Origin: an uncultured Anaerolineales bacterium
Lineage (GTDB): Bacteria; Chloroflexota; Anaerolineae; Anaerolineales; Villigracilaceae
Direction of reading: 5' to 3'
DNA: 38,006 bases
Assembly (NCBI GenBank): GCA_903873975.1
Contig: CAIQQN010000268.1
Span: 1-38,006 of the forward strand
Position numbers and translations under genes: made by a program. The notes beneath the pieces were generated by a model. The model ran no database searches. It was not told where the DNA came from and worked only from the letters and a program-made list of their open reading frames with translations. Below, piece after piece: positions 23,213 through 37,944 of the stretch (positions are counted from its first letter, which is position 1; each line of letters begins with the position of its first letter).

Positions 23213-24406
23213 ATGGAATCCAATAGGATCAAGACTATTAAGATCAAGCATTTGTTGATGGCTGCTGCCATCTGTATCCAGCTGATTTGGTATGGAATAA
23301 TAATGTGGCATTTCAAGCCAGATCCACACCAACCTACTGATTTCATCATTTTTTACACTGCCGGGAGGATTGCTGCTACAGGCCGTTATGATCTGATCTA
23401 TGATTTGGAAGCCCAGCGTGCTGTGCATCAAGAATTACTTGGGGTTCCACTTGCAGTAAATCAATTCCTTCCGTTCAACCACCCTCCTATGTTTGTTCCA
23501 TTGATTCAGTTAATTGCAGGTGGCAACTACACGACTTCTTACTGGGGCTGGGTGGCTATATTAGCCGCATTTTTGGTGGCCGCGATGATTGTATTCAATC
23601 GTCTCCTGCAGGCAGAAAAAATGGAGGCCGGTTCACGCTGGCTGCTTATACTTGTCAGCGTGTTGTTTTATCCGCTTTTTATCAGTCTCTTTAGAGGGCA
23701 GGATTCAGTCATCGTGTTTCTGGGAGTTATGCTCTGGATGTATGGGCTGTTATCCAACAGGGATGCCCTGTCTGGAGCCGGACTGGCACTGGCTGTCCTT
23801 CGCCCGCAGGTTGCACTTATGCTGGCCATCCCGTTCCTGGTTAAGCGGCGAAAGGTTTGGTGGTGGTTTTGCGGGTTTGCCTCGCTTCTGGCCATCTATA
23901 GTCTGTTCCTGGTCGGATGGACCGGCGTCCGGGATTTCTTCTTCCTGATTGGTGTCAGCGCCCAAGGGCAATGGTATGGGATGGAACAGAGAGCCATGCT
24001 TAACTTTACTGGGTTGGTCATGCGTTTATTTCCACAGGGGAATCTGAATATTATCCATACCGTCGCGTGGGGATTGTTCTGCGTTGGATTGGCAATGCTA
24101 TCCATCTGGTGGAAACGATCCCCCGAAATTCGATTACGACAGATCGTTGTTGCCGTAACATTTAGCGTGTTTGCTGCTCCACACCTGTTCTACCACGACC
24201 TGACCTTGCTACTCATCCCATGCCTGGGAGTGGGGTTGGCTGCCATCCGGGCGAACAGGCTAAAGATCTGGGAAGTTGCGGGTCTACTGACCATTGTTTC
24301 TTTTTCTCTCATGGTCAGTGTCTTTTGGAAGCCAATCTATAATATCCTTCCGTACTTGTGGATGGCCGTCCTGGTGTGGGCTGTATGGCAATATGAAACG
24401 GGTTGA
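23213..24406 (+). CDS. Polytopic membrane glycosyltransferase-like protein, GT87/DUF2029 type
   Basis: The 397-residue protein has about ten membrane segments. The first periplasmic loop holds TDFIIFYTAGRIAATGRYDLIYD, followed by FNHPPMFVPLIQL and RGQDSVIVFLGVMLW; this combination is typical of DUF2029/GT87, the family of polyprenyl-phosphomannose-dependent mannosyltransferases. The donor, acceptor and role in envelope glycan or lipid synthesis are not decidable. The frame is open upstream to 23069, but the extra residues look unlike a protein of this family, and AAAGG at 23204-23208 supports the ATG at 23213. It is a single gene between a divergent aldehyde dehydrogenase and a convergent CapA gene. 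Confidence 0.8.
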   Translation: MESNRIKTIKIKHLLMAAAICIQLIWYGIIMWHFKPDPHQPTDFIIFYTAGRIAATGRYDLIYDLEAQRAVHQELLGVPLAVNQFLPFNHPPMFVPLIQLIAGGNYTTSYWGWVAILAAFLVAAMIVFNRLLQAEKMEAGSRWLLILVSVLFYPLFISLFRGQDSVIVFLGVMLWMYGLLSNRDALSGAGLALAVLRPQVALMLAIPFLVKRRKVWWWFCGFASLLAIYSLFLVGWTGVRDFFFLIGVSAQGQWYGMEQRAMLNFTGLVMRLFPQGNLNIIHTVAWGLFCVGLAMLSIWWKRSPEIRLRQIVVAVTFSVFAAPHLFYHDLTLLLIPCLGVGLAAIRANRLKIWEVAGLLTIVSFSLMVSVFWKPIYNILPYLWMAVLVWAVWQYETG

Positions 24407-24442
24407 CATTCGTCATCTATCTCAACCACCTTTATGACGGCT

Positions 24443-25591
24443 CTACGGATTCATTGGGGCGATCAGCGTCCCTATGGCCGGTGCTTCCCCTTCAGTCGCC
24501 AGGCGAGGCAGTCCATTCTCGATCAAAACCGGCACCCAGTCGTAGCTCTGTACACCCGCCCGGGTTAATACCACACGCAGGATGATGGTGGCGTTGGCAA
24601 TTCCCTGATAATCATCCATGACAAAGTTACCCAGGCTGTAGGCAATCAGCCCGACATGATACTGTTCGATGGACTGCAGGATATGGGGGTGCGAGCCAAG
24701 CACCAGCGCCGCGCCGGCGTCAATGGCGGCATGGGCCTCCGCCCGCTGGTTGGGAGAGATGGTGGGGATGTAATTGCCAACCTCGTAACCCGAATGGAGC
24801 TGAACGATTACTATGTCTGATTGGAGTCGGGCGGCGCCCACGTCGGTCGTGATCTGGTCCAGTTCGGCCCAGGCGACGCCGGGCTGGGAGGCGCTGGCGA
24901 TCCAGGTCCGCGCGTCAAATCCGTCCTTTTCGACCGGCACGTCCACGTAGGCCAGGAAAGCCAGCTGCAGACCGTTCCGCTCAAGGATGACCGGAGCGTG
25001 CGCCCCGGCGGCGTTCGCTCCTGCGCCCACGCTGGCGATGCCATACTGCCCCAGGTTGTCGCGCGTATTGAACAGGCCCTGGCTGCCGTAGTCCATGGCA
25101 TGGTTGTTGGCCAGGCTGAGCACGTCGAACCCGGCCAGCGCTAGAGCCTGGGCCGTCTCCAGAGGGGCGGCAAAGGTGTAACTTTTAGGCTGCCGCTCGC
25201 CACTGTCTGTGATGGCACATTCCAGATTCCCGACCAGCACATCTGCAGAATCGAACACAGGCTGGACTCCGGCGAAGATGGTTTGAGGGCCAGGGGCTTG
25301 AACCTGGTCCCCGACCGTGCGCGCCAGCATAATGTCGCCCACCGCCTCCAGGGTCACTTGCCGGCTGGGGATGATTGTGCCGGTCGGTGTGAGGGTGTCC
25401 GATTCCGTGGTAGCCGATGGGGGAGTGTCTGAGGTGGGAGCAGGTGTATCGTTCGCCAGGAGGAACGGGGTCCGCGTTGCACTGGCATTCGGGGGCTCAG
25501 GGCTGATTGAAATGGTTCCAACGGGGGCCGCGCAGCCGCTCAAAAATATGGCAATGAAAAATATGCGCACCAGGTTGCGATCATTTCTCAT
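24443..25591 (-). CDS. CapA/PgsA-family metallophosphatase-like lipoprotein
   Basis: The 382-residue protein has a lipoprotein signal peptide with lipobox LSGC (Cys near residue 20), a Pro/Thr/Ser-rich linker of about 55 residues, and a CapA-type calcineurin-like domain: LEAVGDIMLAR, VGNLECAITD, LSLANNHAMDYG, VIVQLHSGYE, LGSHPHILQ and YSLGNFVMDD. The family is linked to poly-gamma-glutamate synthesis in PgsA, but many members have no such partner, and no PgsB or PgsC gene is here. It should be anchored outside the cytoplasmic membrane. Its start overlaps the helicase-like gene by 11 bases, which suggests co-transcription with a DNA-directed protein, an odd pairing. Confidence 0.88.
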   Translation of the reverse strand: MRNDRNLVRIFFIAIFLSGCAAPVGTISISPEPPNASATRTPFLLANDTPAPTSDTPPSATTESDTLTPTGTIIPSRQVTLEAVGDIMLARTVGDQVQAPGPQTIFAGVQPVFDSADVLVGNLECAITDSGERQPKSYTFAAPLETAQALALAGFDVLSLANNHAMDYGSQGLFNTRDNLGQYGIASVGAGANAAGAHAPVILERNGLQLAFLAYVDVPVEKDGFDARTWIASASQPGVAWAELDQITTDVGAARLQSDIVIVQLHSGYEVGNYIPTISPNQRAEAHAAIDAGAALVLGSHPHILQSIEQYHVGLIAYSLGNFVMDDYQGIANATIILRVVLTRAGVQSYDWVPVLIENGLPRLATEGEAPAIGTLIAPMNP

Positions 25592-27749
25592 TTTGGTTCT
25601 GGATCTCCAACTGCATCTTCCAGATGGCTTTCAATAGTGGACCGCGCTGCTCGAAGCCCGATTCACCCAGGTCGCTCAGGCCCAGAAAAACGCGACTCCG
25701 GCAGCGGCGCAGGAGTCCGGTCACGAGGCGCGCCAGCGTCTGCTGGTTGGCAGCCTGATCATCAGCATCGGTCCATGACCGGTCCCGTTCCCATGAACGG
25801 CTGAGCACATAGGGCTGGGTCAGCGGTTGGAACAGGCGCTCCCACCACCCGCTCGAGCCTGCGTCCAGCCAGAACTGGATGGTTGCGGGCTGGTTCATCA
25901 TCAGGAAAGTATGCGCCGGGGCGAGCAGCACAGCCTCGGCCTGACCGGTCTGCCAGGCTTCGAGGTACTGGGCGGCGATAACGCCATCTTGCAGCATGGC
26001 GAAATATTCTTTGCCTGTTTCCACATTTTCGGATGGGTTTCCATCCCCGCCTTGTGCCACTTCGGCAAATGCCGGCTCCATGGCTTGACGGAACTTCTGC
26101 ACCGACTCGACCAGACTTGCGGCCGTCCGCGCTCCGTCGTTGTTGCGGTGAAAGCCAAATCCTTTCTGCGACAGGATTTCCCCGAACAGGCGGCGCAGGA
26201 AGTGGTCGAGCGGATCGGGAACTGGCTGCCTGCGATAGGCTTCGATCCATTCCCGCAAGGTTTCATAATGCCGGCCAAAGACGAACGTGATGCGCTCCTG
26301 GACCTCGGTCCGGATCGCAGCGAAACCCGAGAGCGAGAAGTCCCGCAGGCGGTAGACGATCTCAGTAAGCAGTTGGGCGCGCACCAGGTCCATGCCTTCG
26401 ATGGCATACAAAAGGGCGTACGCCAGGTCAAATTTTGTCGGGCGGACATCCCAGCCCGGATGGGCCAGTTCAGCCAGGGTCAGCAGGCAGTGACTGGCCG
26501 GTTCATCCCGCAGCGAACGCGAAGGCCTGTGTGAACGCCACGGGATTTCCAGTTCTTCCAGGCGGTTGCTGAGCGAGAAGCGCAGCGCGTCCGATAAATA
26601 TGGGGCCAGCACAACGATTTCCGACGGGGAAAGCCCTTCGTTTGTGATAAGGCGCTGGATTTCTTCAGCAACCCAGTCCAGCATTTGTGGATAGAAACGG
26701 GTGGGTGTTTCGGTTGGCGGGAAAGTGAGTGCAGCCAGGCTTTCCGATGTGATATGCGTCGTAGTCACGGTTCCAGCACGGGGTGCCGGATGGTTTGGCA
26801 GAAGTTTCGATGCAAAGGCAATTTCCAACCCCTGGATTTCCGGCGTTGTGACGAATGACTCGCTTAGTTCGGCATTTATATCGCACAGACCTGCCAAACG
26901 ATCAGCAGAGTCTGGGTCCGCGCCCAGGAAGCGCCGGTAGCCTCCATCCGTGTCAAAAATGATCAATGCCGAGTCGAAATCCCGCAGCCACTCCGACAAC
27001 AAATCGTGCGCCACCGGGATGTCTTCTTCGACATTGTCGCAGATCAGGTGGCGGTACTGGCGGGTCAGATAGGCATGACACTCCGGCGTGCGCCAGAGGA
27101 TATTCCAGAAGAGTTCCAATTGCAGGGAGAAGTCCAGCAGGTTGTGTTCGAGACAGTACTGGCGGAAGCGGCTGGCGCTCGCCTGTGCGTCGGCGTAGAC
27201 ACGCCGCTGGCCTGGATCCCCGAGCCAGGCAGCGGATAATCTCTCCCCGATTTCGGTGTAGGGAAACCCGACCGATGCGGCCTTATTCAGGTTATCTAGC
27301 ACCTGGCTGTACAGCCGGTTGCGGTCAATTGTGACCGAAGCAAAGAAGCCCTCGTCCAGCAGCGGGCGGACGAGGCGCGCCATGTAATACTGAGCCGTTT
27401 CCAGTGTCAGGAAAACCGGTGGCTGGTCGGTGTGGGCGAACCCGGCGGCTTCGGCGGCCAGCGGCCAGAATAGGTCCACCATACGGCGCGCCAGCCCGCC
27501 GACCGTGGCGAGTGCCACCTGTCCGCCCGGGCCGATATCGGGGAGGCGCAGGGCTGTCTCGTAAGGGGCTTGCAAGGTTCGCTGGGGCGTTAGGACGAGG
27601 ACGGAATCGGCAGGCACGCCCGAAGCCAGTAGCCTCCGCAGGTGTTCCACGCCGACGGTCGTTTTGCCGCAGCCGGCAGGTCCGGAGAGGAATGTTTTGG
27701 CGTCGAGGCTTGCTTTGGCGATTTCACATTGTGCTTGATTTAGTCTCAC
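25581..27749 (-). CDS. UvrD-like SF1 helicase/recombinase-family protein with degenerate motifs
   Basis: The 722-residue protein starts like an SF1A helicase: NQAQ Q-motif, Walker A GPAGCGKT (23-30), LVLTPQRTLQ (motif Ia), LLDFSLQLELFW ahead of motif II, and LICDNVEED (238-242) where DExQD is expected, so the Walker B Glu position is Asn with acidic residues two further on. A FDTDGGYRRFLGADP segment replaces motif III. The C-terminal half shows LAPAHTFLMMNQPATIQFWLDA and a CRSRVFLGLSDLGESGFEQ stretch in place of motifs V and VI. This resembles AddB-like or cyanobacterial recombinase-family proteins. Unwinding activity is doubtful. The start is a GTG, eight bases after a GATAAT hexamer. Confidence 0.75.
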   Translation of the reverse strand: MRLNQAQCEIAKASLDAKTFLSGPAGCGKTTVGVEHLRRLLASGVPADSVLVLTPQRTLQAPYETALRLPDIGPGGQVALATVGGLARRMVDLFWPLAAEAAGFAHTDQPPVFLTLETAQYYMARLVRPLLDEGFFASVTIDRNRLYSQVLDNLNKAASVGFPYTEIGERLSAAWLGDPGQRRVYADAQASASRFRQYCLEHNLLDFSLQLELFWNILWRTPECHAYLTRQYRHLICDNVEEDIPVAHDLLSEWLRDFDSALIIFDTDGGYRRFLGADPDSADRLAGLCDINAELSESFVTTPEIQGLEIAFASKLLPNHPAPRAGTVTTTHITSESLAALTFPPTETPTRFYPQMLDWVAEEIQRLITNEGLSPSEIVVLAPYLSDALRFSLSNRLEELEIPWRSHRPSRSLRDEPASHCLLTLAELAHPGWDVRPTKFDLAYALLYAIEGMDLVRAQLLTEIVYRLRDFSLSGFAAIRTEVQERITFVFGRHYETLREWIEAYRRQPVPDPLDHFLRRLFGEILSQKGFGFHRNNDGARTAASLVESVQKFRQAMEPAFAEVAQGGDGNPSENVETGKEYFAMLQDGVIAAQYLEAWQTGQAEAVLLAPAHTFLMMNQPATIQFWLDAGSSGWWERLFQPLTQPYVLSRSWERDRSWTDADDQAANQQTLARLVTGLLRRCRSRVFLGLSDLGESGFEQRGPLLKAIWKMQLEIQNQNEK

Positions 27750-35486: not shown

Positions 35487-35966
35487 ATGAAACAGGGTAT
35501 TCATCCGACTTACTACCCGGATGCCAAGGTGACCTGCGCCTCCTGCGGCACCACCTGGACAACCGGTTCGACCAAGCAAGAAATCCGCGTCGAAACCTGT
35601 TCGAATTGCCATCCGTTTTTCACTGGCGAGCAGGGCCGAATCGTGGACATGGAAGGTCAGGTGGACCGCTTCTATAAGAAGCTGCAGGTCCGCCAGAATT
35701 ATGTTGAAGAAAAGAAGACCCGTGCCGAGTCCAAAGTGTCTCCCAAGCGCCCCATTGCGGAACTGGAATTGACCGCCCGTCCCGTCGCTGCGTTGGAGAA
35801 GGCTGGCATCAAGGAAGTTGGTCAATTCTTGGCAAAACTTGCCGAGGGCGAGGACGCTGTGCTGGCGATCGAAGGCTTTGGACGCAAGTCGCTGATTGAC
35901 ATTAAGAAGAAGCTGCGCGCTCTCGGCTATACCCTTCCCGAAACTGCGGAAACTCCCGCCACGTAG
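35487..35966 (+). CDS. rpmE: Ribosomal protein L31 fused to an RNA polymerase alpha-CTD-like domain
   Basis: The 159-residue protein has two parts. Residues 1-72 are zinc-type L31: [20 protein letters not shown], with C17, C20, C38 and C41 as the likely Zn ligands, and [11 protein letters not shown]. After a lysine-rich linker, residues 88-152 read [20 protein letters not shown] and then VGQFLAKL...[23 protein letters not shown], which aligns along its length with the alpha C-terminal domain of RNA polymerase. Equivalents of DNA-contacting R265 (R98), G296 (G132), K298 (K134) and S299 (S135) are kept; N268 and C269 are Ala. Normal L31 ends near 70-90 residues. AAAGGA precedes the ATG. It closes the operon, before a strong terminator. 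Confidence 0.9.
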
Positions 35967-36671: not shown

Positions 36672-36699
36672 GGGATGAAAAGCCGTGCCAGGAGTGCAT

Positions 36700-37257
36700 A
36701 TGCAGGATTACATGGATTTCGTTGCTGAAATTTTGATCGACAAACAGACCATCCAAAACCGCATCAAAGAACTGGCCGGGGAGATCAGCCGCGACTATAC
36801 AGGTAAAGACCTGCTGCTCATCTGCATCCTGCGCGGCGGAATTGTTTTTATGGTGGACCTGATGCGGCACATCACTGTTCCGCTTCAATTGGACTTCATG
36901 GCAGTTTCATCCTACGGTGCAGGAGTGCGCCAGTCGGGCGGCAGCGTCCGTCTCTCGCTTGACTTGAAAACCGATATCCGTGACAAGGACGTGTTACTGG
37001 TCGAAGATATCGTCGATAGTGGCAATACCATCGCCTACGTGCTGGAGTTCCTGCAAACCCGCCAGCCGCGCAGTCTTAAAGTCTGCACCTTGCTGGATAA
37101 GGAAGAGCGTCGCGAGACATCTATCGCGATCCATTACCGCGGCTTCAGCATCCCGAATAAGTTCGTTTTTGGCTACGGCCTTGACCTGGACGAGTACTAC
37201 CGCAACTTGCCTTTCATCGCGGTTGTGGATCTTAAGAAATACCAGCCTAAAGGCTGA
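36700..37257 (+). CDS. hpt: Hypoxanthine phosphoribosyltransferase, copy 1
   Basis: The 185-residue enzyme makes IMP or GMP from the free purine base and PRPP. It has LLICILRGGIVF, SSYGAG with the flexible loop, the PRPP-binding VLLVEDIVDSGNTI motif, and FVFGYGLDLDEYYRNLPFI near the C terminus. AGGAG lies five bases before the ATG at 36700; the in-frame GTG at 36685 is less likely. It begins 28 bases after tdk. A second gene of exactly the same length and similar sequence follows at 37387, so this is one of two tandem paralogues. Confidence 0.93.
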   Translation: MQDYMDFVAEILIDKQTIQNRIKELAGEISRDYTGKDLLLICILRGGIVFMVDLMRHITVPLQLDFMAVSSYGAGVRQSGGSVRLSLDLKTDIRDKDVLLVEDIVDSGNTIAYVLEFLQTRQPRSLKVCTLLDKEERRETSIAIHYRGFSIPNKFVFGYGLDLDEYYRNLPFIAVVDLKKYQPKG

Positions 37258-37386
37258 CGGGAATTGGTTCTTTGGGAATCTCCGTGAAATGGGAAAGATA
37301 TGGAAGTGTTCGGGCGGGCTTGACCTGCCCAATATCCCCCATATTCCATCGTGCCATGCAAATCCCAAAAGAGCCTGGGAGCTGCC

Positions 37387-37944
37387 ATGCAAGATTACCG
37401 CGAGTTTATTGACGAAGTCCTCGTAGACGAAAAAACAATCGAGAAACGCGTAGCCGAACTCGGCGTGCAGATCAGCCACGCTTACGCTGGTCAGGAACTA
37501 CTGATCGTCTGTCTTTTGCGTGGCGGGCTGACCTTCACTGCCGATCTGACCCGCCATCTTTCCATCCCGCATACCCTGGACTGCATGTCGCTTTCCTCCT
37601 ATGGCGTCGGGAATTACGCCTCCAGCGGTAATGTGCGCGTCAACCTCGACCTGATGACAAATATCGAAGGCTTTAATGTGCTGCTGGTCGAAGACATTGT
37701 GGACAGCGGGCGCACGCTGGCGCATGTTTTGCAAATGCTGAAAACGCGCGAGCCGAAGAGCCTGAAGGTCTGTGTGCTGCTCGATAAGAAATACCGCCGC
37801 GAGGTGCCGGTGGAGGTGGACTACGTCGGCTTCGACGTACCCGACCGGTATGTTTTCGGCTACGGGATCGATATTGACGAACACTACCGTCACCTGCGTT
37901 TCATTGCCGCGGCTGACATGCAGAAGTATAGGAAAACGCCGTAA
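37387..37944 (+). CDS. hpt: Hypoxanthine phosphoribosyltransferase, copy 2
   Basis: The 185-residue protein is a paralogue of the preceding gene: LLIVCLLRGGLTF, SSYGVG, VLLVEDIVDSGRTL and YVFGYGIDIDEHYRHLRFI. About half of the residues agree, and the lengths are identical, so the pair is an old tandem duplication. Differences in the flexible loop (NYASSGN against RQSGGS) and after the PRPP motif (RTLAHVLQM against NTIAYVLEF) could alter base preference. GGGAG lies five bases before the ATG. The 129-base gap to copy 1 has no clear promoter; read-through from tdk-hpt is likely. After the stop lies a large hairpin. Confidence 0.92.
   Translation: MQDYREFIDEVLVDEKTIEKRVAELGVQISHAYAGQELLIVCLLRGGLTFTADLTRHLSIPHTLDCMSLSSYGVGNYASSGNVRVNLDLMTNIEGFNVLLVEDIVDSGRTLAHVLQMLKTREPKSLKVCVLLDKKYRREVPVEVDYVGFDVPDRYVFGYGIDIDEHYRHLRFIAAADMQKYRKTP

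Follow-up and report, generated by a model that had tools for sequence, protein, structure and literature searches.

Two described helicase-nucleases and one predicted operon are among the closest comparisons for the gene studied here. AddAB (RexAB) pairs an active motor with an inactivated helicase fold and has a four-cysteine nuclease (PMC4824097, PMC3466216), and the inactivated helicase domain of AddB is presented as the Chi scanner (PMC4824097). In the actinobacterial AdnAB, paired UvrD-fold motors are associated with RecB-type nuclease, each subunit carrying motor and nuclease in a single chain (PMC13309787). The nearest described arrangement within the open-licence literature is the two-gene UvrD/Cas4-like operon, found mostly in Clostridiales: a helicase and a Cas4-like nuclease are encoded by separate genes of a predicted operon, and the account of these operons mentions two genes and no pseudo-helicase (PMC5704561). 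The same source notes the presence of solo-Cas4 in many Chloroflexi (PMC5704561). The gene that concerns us comes from an uncultured Anaerolineales bacterium of the phylum Chloroflexota and lies at 25581..27749, on the minus strand, of a 38,006-nucleotide stretch of DNA (contig CAIQQN010000268.1), referred to below as the window. It encodes a 722 amino-acid protein of UvrD fold, here called the pseudo-helicase. In our view it is reasonably probable that three polypeptides form a helicase-nuclease which resects DNA ends for RecA, and that this protein is its catalytically degenerate subunit.

The reading frame opens with a GTG codon. At E<=1, the sole Pfam family above its cut-off was the UvrD-helicase N-terminal domain (29.5 bits versus 23), and NCBIfam gave two P-loop matches, both below cut-off, and no match to the AddB model; no nuclease domain was found in the chain by Pfam, and a single-sequence search of the PDB returned no match. 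A preliminary description, made from the letters of the window alone, had claimed that Walker A is kept and that the DExQD region is altered, and both claims stand. Walker A reads GPAGCGKT at residues 23-30 (27660..27683, minus strand, as for all motifs of this gene), with K29 in 110 of 111 non-redundant homologues; the Walker B region reads DNVEED at residues 238-243 (27021..27038), where N239, E241 and E242 are each found in 111/111 homologues and the Walker B Asp in 109, the other two having Glu. DNVEED pairs with DEAQDS of the partner helicase introduced below in a profile-profile alignment (E 1.1e-8; the whole-length hhalign alignment spans residues 1-575 only) and with DEYQDT of PcrA in a weak HMMER alignment (E 0.025). 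Since both alignments give the same register for motif II, the position of the catalytic Glu, N239, is occupied by Asn. Such conservation of N239, E241, E242 and K29 means that the altered motif is neither due to chance nor a single mutant. The fixed DN.EE pattern, together with a low ratio of non-synonymous to synonymous substitution rates (dN/dS 0.08-0.16, versus five congeners), further indicates a trait fixed under purifying selection. A chance frame or a decayed gene is ruled out by the same 111 homologues and dN/dS values.

The remaining helicase motifs, numbered as in superfamily 1 (SF1), are altered to different extents. The motif III region DTDGGYRRFLGAD, at residues 266-278 (26916..26954), is degenerate and lacks the Gln: it has D..GGYRRFLGAD where others have GDPNQ... 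or GDADQSIYRWRGAD, a departure not listed in the preliminary description. Motif V of the partner helicase reads HKAKGLEW, and no canonical counterpart was found in the pseudo-helicase; the region expected for it, placed by position only, contains the PAHTF...QFW block at residues 611-627 (25869..25919), with Q625 and W627 in 111/111 homologues. A candidate for the motif VI Arg, also assigned by position only, is provided by R682-C683 (25701..25706), both residues again in 111/111 homologues and situated where a predicted helix (661-680) meets a predicted strand (683-691), the expected place of the SF1 motif VI Arg; the C-terminal profile alignment (hhalign) of pseudo-helicase and partner helicase was not significant. 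Thus the earlier claim that motifs V and VI are both replaced is borne out for V and not for VI. The possibility raised at the same time, that a canonical Walker B Glu and a motif VI Arg had simply been misplaced, is answered for the Glu, whose position is Asn; for the Arg there is, by position, a candidate in R682.

The AlphaFold model of the pseudo-helicase (predicted local distance difference test, pLDDT, 83.8; predicted template modelling score, pTM, 0.81) resembles SF1A helicases over its whole length. Its top seven fold matches are UvrD, PcrA and Rep chains, with Z from 29.1 down to 27.2 and a root-mean-square deviation of 9-11 Å that probably reflects a domain swivel. With the chains of entries 9np6, 4ceh and 3u4q assigned as we assume, further matches were AdnB (9np6_B; Z 26.0, 4.9 Å over 621 residues), AddA (4ceh_A; Z 21.6, 5.2 Å over 632 residues), RecB (Z 20.2) and AddB (3u4q_B; Z 20.1, 6.4 Å over 605 residues), and ranking by Foldseek E-value placed UvrD first and AddB at rank 15. 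The protein thus shares fold and Pfam N-terminal domain with PcrA, UvrD and Rep, but differs from them in that the catalytic Glu, the motif III Gln and a canonical motif V were not found, and in its recurrent genomic partners.

These partners became apparent from 20 relatives' loci compared together with the window: the genes recurring downstream encode a helicase of about 750 amino acids, a nuclease of about 290 amino acids and RecJ. Relatives do have partners of the kinds that the preliminary description had pointed to, a nuclease or an AddA-like protein, encoded in the same direction as the gene. DEAQD, GDPNQ, HKAKGLEW and the region of VGITRAR are kept in the partner helicase, an apparently active enzyme, with few substitutions over 13 aligned rows. 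One representative matched the UvrD-type and AAA helicase families of Pfam, and no nuclease family of Pfam was found in it. The nuclease belongs to Pfam PDDEXK_1 (94.6 and 77 bits for two representatives), and H59, E105, D122, D136-W-K138, Q154 and the four cysteines of Fe-S type, C23, C232, C235 and C241, are invariant in 10/10 divergent rows; such a four-cysteine arrangement is known in AddB and Cas4 (PMC3466216). Searched against the PDB, the nuclease profile gave insignificant matches only. The predicted structure (pLDDT 79.3, pTM 0.74) was closest by Z to the nuclease domain of AdnA (9np6_A 782-1038; Z 18.3, 2.8 Å over 223 residues), followed by AddB (Z 15.5, 3.8 Å over 237), tied with the Argonaute-associated Cas4-family protein ACE1 (Z 14.8, 4.0 Å over 220), and by CRISPR Cas4 (Z 12.1). 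One recJ scored above its NCBIfam cut-off (469.4 versus 396.9 bits). In one partner helicase, that of genome G024 (L041:5340-8018, minus strand), SLRGTKQSPDED-like units recur one after another in a linker.

For the linkage counts, each of the 122 distinct homologues was represented by the longest stretch available. Helicase open reading frames (ORFs) were seen in 72 cases, always downstream of the pseudo-helicase gene and on its strand, 28 of them within 100 nucleotides and 41 within 1 kb; the nuclease ORFs seen are likewise all on the same strand (26/26), and 25 are downstream. Where at least 6 kb of downstream sequence was available, the helicase was present in 52/76 loci and the nuclease in 24/76. 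In a set of 16 divergent loci, the helicase was seen in 11 and the nuclease in 7. The set was also met outside the Chloroflexota. A tblastn search of plasmids gave four records matching the pseudo-helicase, the best being the 56.5-kb plasmid pSR56 of Salinibacter ruber M8 (Rhodothermota), where 97% of the query aligns at 45.5% identity. There the homologue, annotated ‘hypothetical protein’, retains GPVGTGKTT, DNVEE and RRC, and pseudo-helicase, ATP-dependent helicase, PD-(D/E)XK nuclease and recJ follow one another in this order on one strand (L212:10001-17884), scoring 825, 905, 283 and 900 bits against the respective family profiles. This gathering of the four genes in another phylum, on one plasmid, is in our view the strongest single sign that they may function jointly. 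A more remote relative is carried by plasmid pILYOP01 of Ilyobacter polytropus (L213:8028-10001): 657 amino acids, 23% identity over 65%, with DNLEN at motif II. It is annotated as a UvrD-helicase domain protein. On that plasmid only weak UvrD matches, and no linked helicase or nuclease of the set's families, were found.

Occurrence across genomes points in the same direction. Among 61 relatives, the pseudo-helicase is encoded in 43 (E<=1e-3), the helicase in 42 (E<=1e-30) and the nuclease in 42 (E<=1e-5); 37 genomes have all three genes, 16 have none and 8 have two of the three (Fisher p 6e-10, in a test that ignores kinship). For 27 order- and class-level genomes, the window's included, the helicase was found in 17/17 carriers of the pseudo-helicase and 0/10 non-carriers, and the nuclease in 12/17 and 0/10, respectively. 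The profiles included helicases from eleven and nucleases from seven of the 17 carriers; in carriers outside the profiles, the window's own genome aside, the figures are 5/5 for the helicase and 5/9 for the nuclease. Pairwise distances of pseudo-helicase and helicase correlate with r=0.95 (39 loci; 0/999 permutations as high), which is what joint vertical descent predicts.

A pattern scan of named genomes confirmed 296 relatives of the pseudo-helicase among 337 candidate stretches, and the best 80 of these 296 all carry Chloroflexota names. In a sample of 400 genomes from this phylum there were 46 matches. Of these, 45 are in the class of the window, the Anaerolineae, or in a closer group; the remaining match is weak and covers profile positions 3-116 only. 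A cyanobacterial connection, suggested in the preliminary description, found no support in the plasmid search, to which cyanobacterial chromosomes did not belong: the one cyanobacterial match covered 16% of the query, inside a much larger protein. Two variants among the homologues may be mentioned. That of genome G032 (L164:1005-3686) is an 894 amino-acid frame whose variable linker is interrupted, in frame, by an endonuclease-like segment resembling DUF559 and flanked by two similar stretches, each of some 30 residues. In genome G002 the intact gene is followed, 1.3 kb downstream, by a 38 amino-acid stretch (C3:114884-114997) that shares 79% identity with residues 680-717 and resembles a partial duplication.

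From the computed fold, motif state, conservation, linkage and co-occurrence, the presence of the set on a plasmid of another phylum and the intact motifs of the partners, we infer a complex for DNA-end resection that resembles a split-up AddAB or AdnAB. In this reading, which we think fits best, the pseudo-helicase would not turn over ATP and there may be a Chi-like recognition. The three proteins would bind each other, and the UvrD-type partner helicase would be the only motor and unwind the DNA. The pseudo-helicase would bind ATP without useful hydrolysis and receive or hold, perhaps scan, the unwound strand, as the inactive domain of AddB does; the separate nuclease would cut that strand, like the nuclease domain of AddB or AdnA; and RecJ, sometimes encoded next door, may extend the resection. 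The net outcome would be an AddB/AdnA split into two chains, next to an AddA/AdnB counterpart without nuclease domain.

The preliminary description had proposed an AddB-like, ATP-binding DNA-end factor that does not unwind. The comparison is probably apt as far as the inactivated helicase domain of AddB is concerned, since in both cases an intact Walker A stands beside degenerate remaining helicase motifs, and the protein is predicted not to unwind DNA; membership of the AddB family is another matter, as no AddB family model matches the 722 amino-acid protein. The nuclease of AddB is in the same chain whereas here it is a separate protein, and AddA is a helicase with a nuclease domain whereas the partner helicase, judged on one representative, has none. 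With AdnAB the likeness lies in the overall motor fold, in the whole-length alignment of the pseudo-helicase with AdnB and in the rank of the AdnA nuclease domain as nearest, by Z, to the free nuclease; here, however, the chains are three in number, only one is a nuclease and one is motor-like but lacks the catalytic Glu; nor does the 722 amino-acid protein join motor and RecB-type nuclease in one chain. Because it has no in-chain nuclease, and its AddA-type partner is without nuclease, the protein is not a member of the AddB or AdnA/AdnB families, and we file the set as a variant of the helicase-nuclease kind outside both.

Several observations weigh against a resection complex of this kind. 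Fusion proteins joining members of the set were not found among the ORFs examined, so there is no direct sign of a complex. The linkage is incomplete: in the 76 loci that extend 6 kb or more downstream, no helicase is seen in 24 and no nuclease in 52, and in one locus (L123) the nuclease is upstream of the pseudo-helicase gene. RecJ is encoded next after only 10 of the 26 distinct nucleases whose loci leave 1.5 kb for it, and was rejected as an obligate part on this ground. Genes upstream and on the opposite strand recur too (L21-, L31- and kinase-type clusters, with 8-12 members in 21 loci); since other neighbours recur and the linkage counts carry no background control, a conserved neighbourhood alone is not proof. 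The co-occurrence test, as said, takes no account of kinship, and, the window's own genome aside, the nuclease was not found in four of the 17 carriers (G314, G356, G376 and G205). When the matches of the nuclease model are ranked by Foldseek E-value, ACE1, of the Cas4 family, comes first. The window's genus often has the pseudo-helicase gene apart from the helicase. In the window's own genome (G000) the helicase is on another contig (C25, at 24003-26237), and the nuclease was not found; to judge from synteny with genome G004, it probably lies past the end of C25.

AddAB was rejected as a component of the same genome, G000, in which neither TIGR02773 (E<=0.001) nor TIGR02785 (E<=1e-40) had a match, in a search that did not extend to RecBCD, AdnAB and RecFOR. 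AddB-like matches were obtained in 10 of the 61 genomes, none above the family cut-off and three of them weak (G018, G032 and G047); the others, with frames of about 1000-1100 amino acids, belong to five carriers and two non-carriers of the pseudo-helicase set. Their presence in five carriers also tells against the proposed role in its simplest form, since the two can coexist and the set is then no simple replacement for AddB. These sporadic AddB-like proteins are those of L071, L072, L073, L074, L075, L076 and G046:C198. The strict AddA search (TIGR02785, E<=1e-40) was positive in 2/61 genomes; as this is fewer than for AddB-like genes, it probably misses AddA genes.

The main rival explanation is that the pseudo-helicase is an active, if unusual, SF1 ATPase and a second motor beside the partner helicase. 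E241 or E242 would serve as catalytic base, and the fact that either might supply a shifted catalytic carboxylate is a further point against a degenerate subunit. Retention of Walker A, of the Walker B Asp, of both Glu residues and of an Arg at the motif VI position speaks for such an enzyme, and a pure scaffold need not retain a full P-loop. Against this stand the Asn at the catalytic Glu position in every homologue and the failure to find a motif III Gln or a canonical motif V. Moreover, a kept P-loop need not mean hydrolysis, because the inactivated helicase domain of AddB is pictured with bound adenylyl imidodiphosphate (AMP-PNP) and Mg2+ (PMC4824097). On balance we regard a second active motor as unlikely.

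A second rival assigns the set to defence, as a system of the Gabija or Cas4-UvrD kind degrading foreign DNA rather than a housekeeping repair function. The plasmid location in S. ruber M8 would suit it, as would the proximity of the nuclease fold to the Argonaute-associated ACE1, and a part in defence has been suggested for fusions of the UvrD-Cas4-like kind (PMC5704561). PADLOC gave matches in this sense, all weak: 30.6 bits for GajB, and 27.5 bits and lower for the nuclease with Cas4-like models. As to Gabija, the partners seen to recur, in comparisons not aimed at GajA, are a helicase and a PD-(D/E)XK nuclease. However, 35 of the 37 genomes from the window's family carry the gene (contig-edge fragments counted), and gene and helicase are inherited together. 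The gene had no match in 50,697 phage records and, in a pattern-limited scan of viral contigs, none of 19 pattern matches was confirmed. A phage or viral origin was rejected on the latter two results, and a role in defence seems to us improbable. Less credible still is a regulatory role with no connection to DNA ends, for instance that of an RNA polymerase factor like HelD, which does figure among the fold matches (6wvk_H; Z 18.9, 383 residues aligned) and the weak sequence matches, but over far fewer residues than AddA, AddB or AdnB, and which would not account for 72 of 72 helicase ORFs lying downstream on the same strand or for the set being together in another phylum.

The immediate neighbour of the pseudo-helicase gene in the window is a capA-like gene (24443..25591, minus strand; PGA_cap, 248.6 bits in Pfam), which we judge to be a passenger outside the system. 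The two genes overlap by 11 bases; the preliminary description saw this as unusual, and the overlap is real, but it is of the ordinary co-directional, end-to-start type. CapA was rejected as a partner: with a profile built from two sequences, it adjoins the pseudo-helicase gene in only 5/80 loci, and in a near relative (L083) it sits between this gene and the helicase, for which reason it is best read as a later insertion. Elsewhere in the window, the protein encoded at 35487-35966 (plus strand) belongs to a cluster with a member in 9 of the 21 loci compared; it presumably has an L31-like N-terminus followed by a stretch like the helix-hairpin-helix of the RNA polymerase alpha C-terminus. Further on, tandem paralogues at 36685-37257 and 37351-37944 (plus strand), which we assume to be phosphoribosyltransferase-like, are present in two copies also in L032, L049 and L050.

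In the open-licence literature, to which our search was confined and which leaves out subscription journals, we found no description of the three-gene set. There is about an even chance, in our estimation, that it represents a fourth presynaptic helicase-nuclease architecture beside RecBCD, AddAB and AdnAB, in which an ATP-locked pseudo-helicase, a UvrD motor and an Fe-S nuclease each stand on their own and the first of them possibly scans for a Chi-like sequence. Such an architecture would be old in its Chloroflexota class and able to move between phyla as a set with recJ. With motor, pseudo-helicase and nuclease on different chains, the roles fused in AddB and AdnA could be tested one by one, and Salinibacter ruber M8, a named strain with the set, offers an experimental entry. 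A survey published in 2005 reported many genomes with reported recombination and without presynaptic enzymes, suggesting that presynaptic mechanisms remained to be discovered (PMC1193525). In a large and mostly uncultured group, where AddB-like genes are rare (7 to 10 of the 61 genomes considered), the set described here would be a concrete candidate for such a mechanism.

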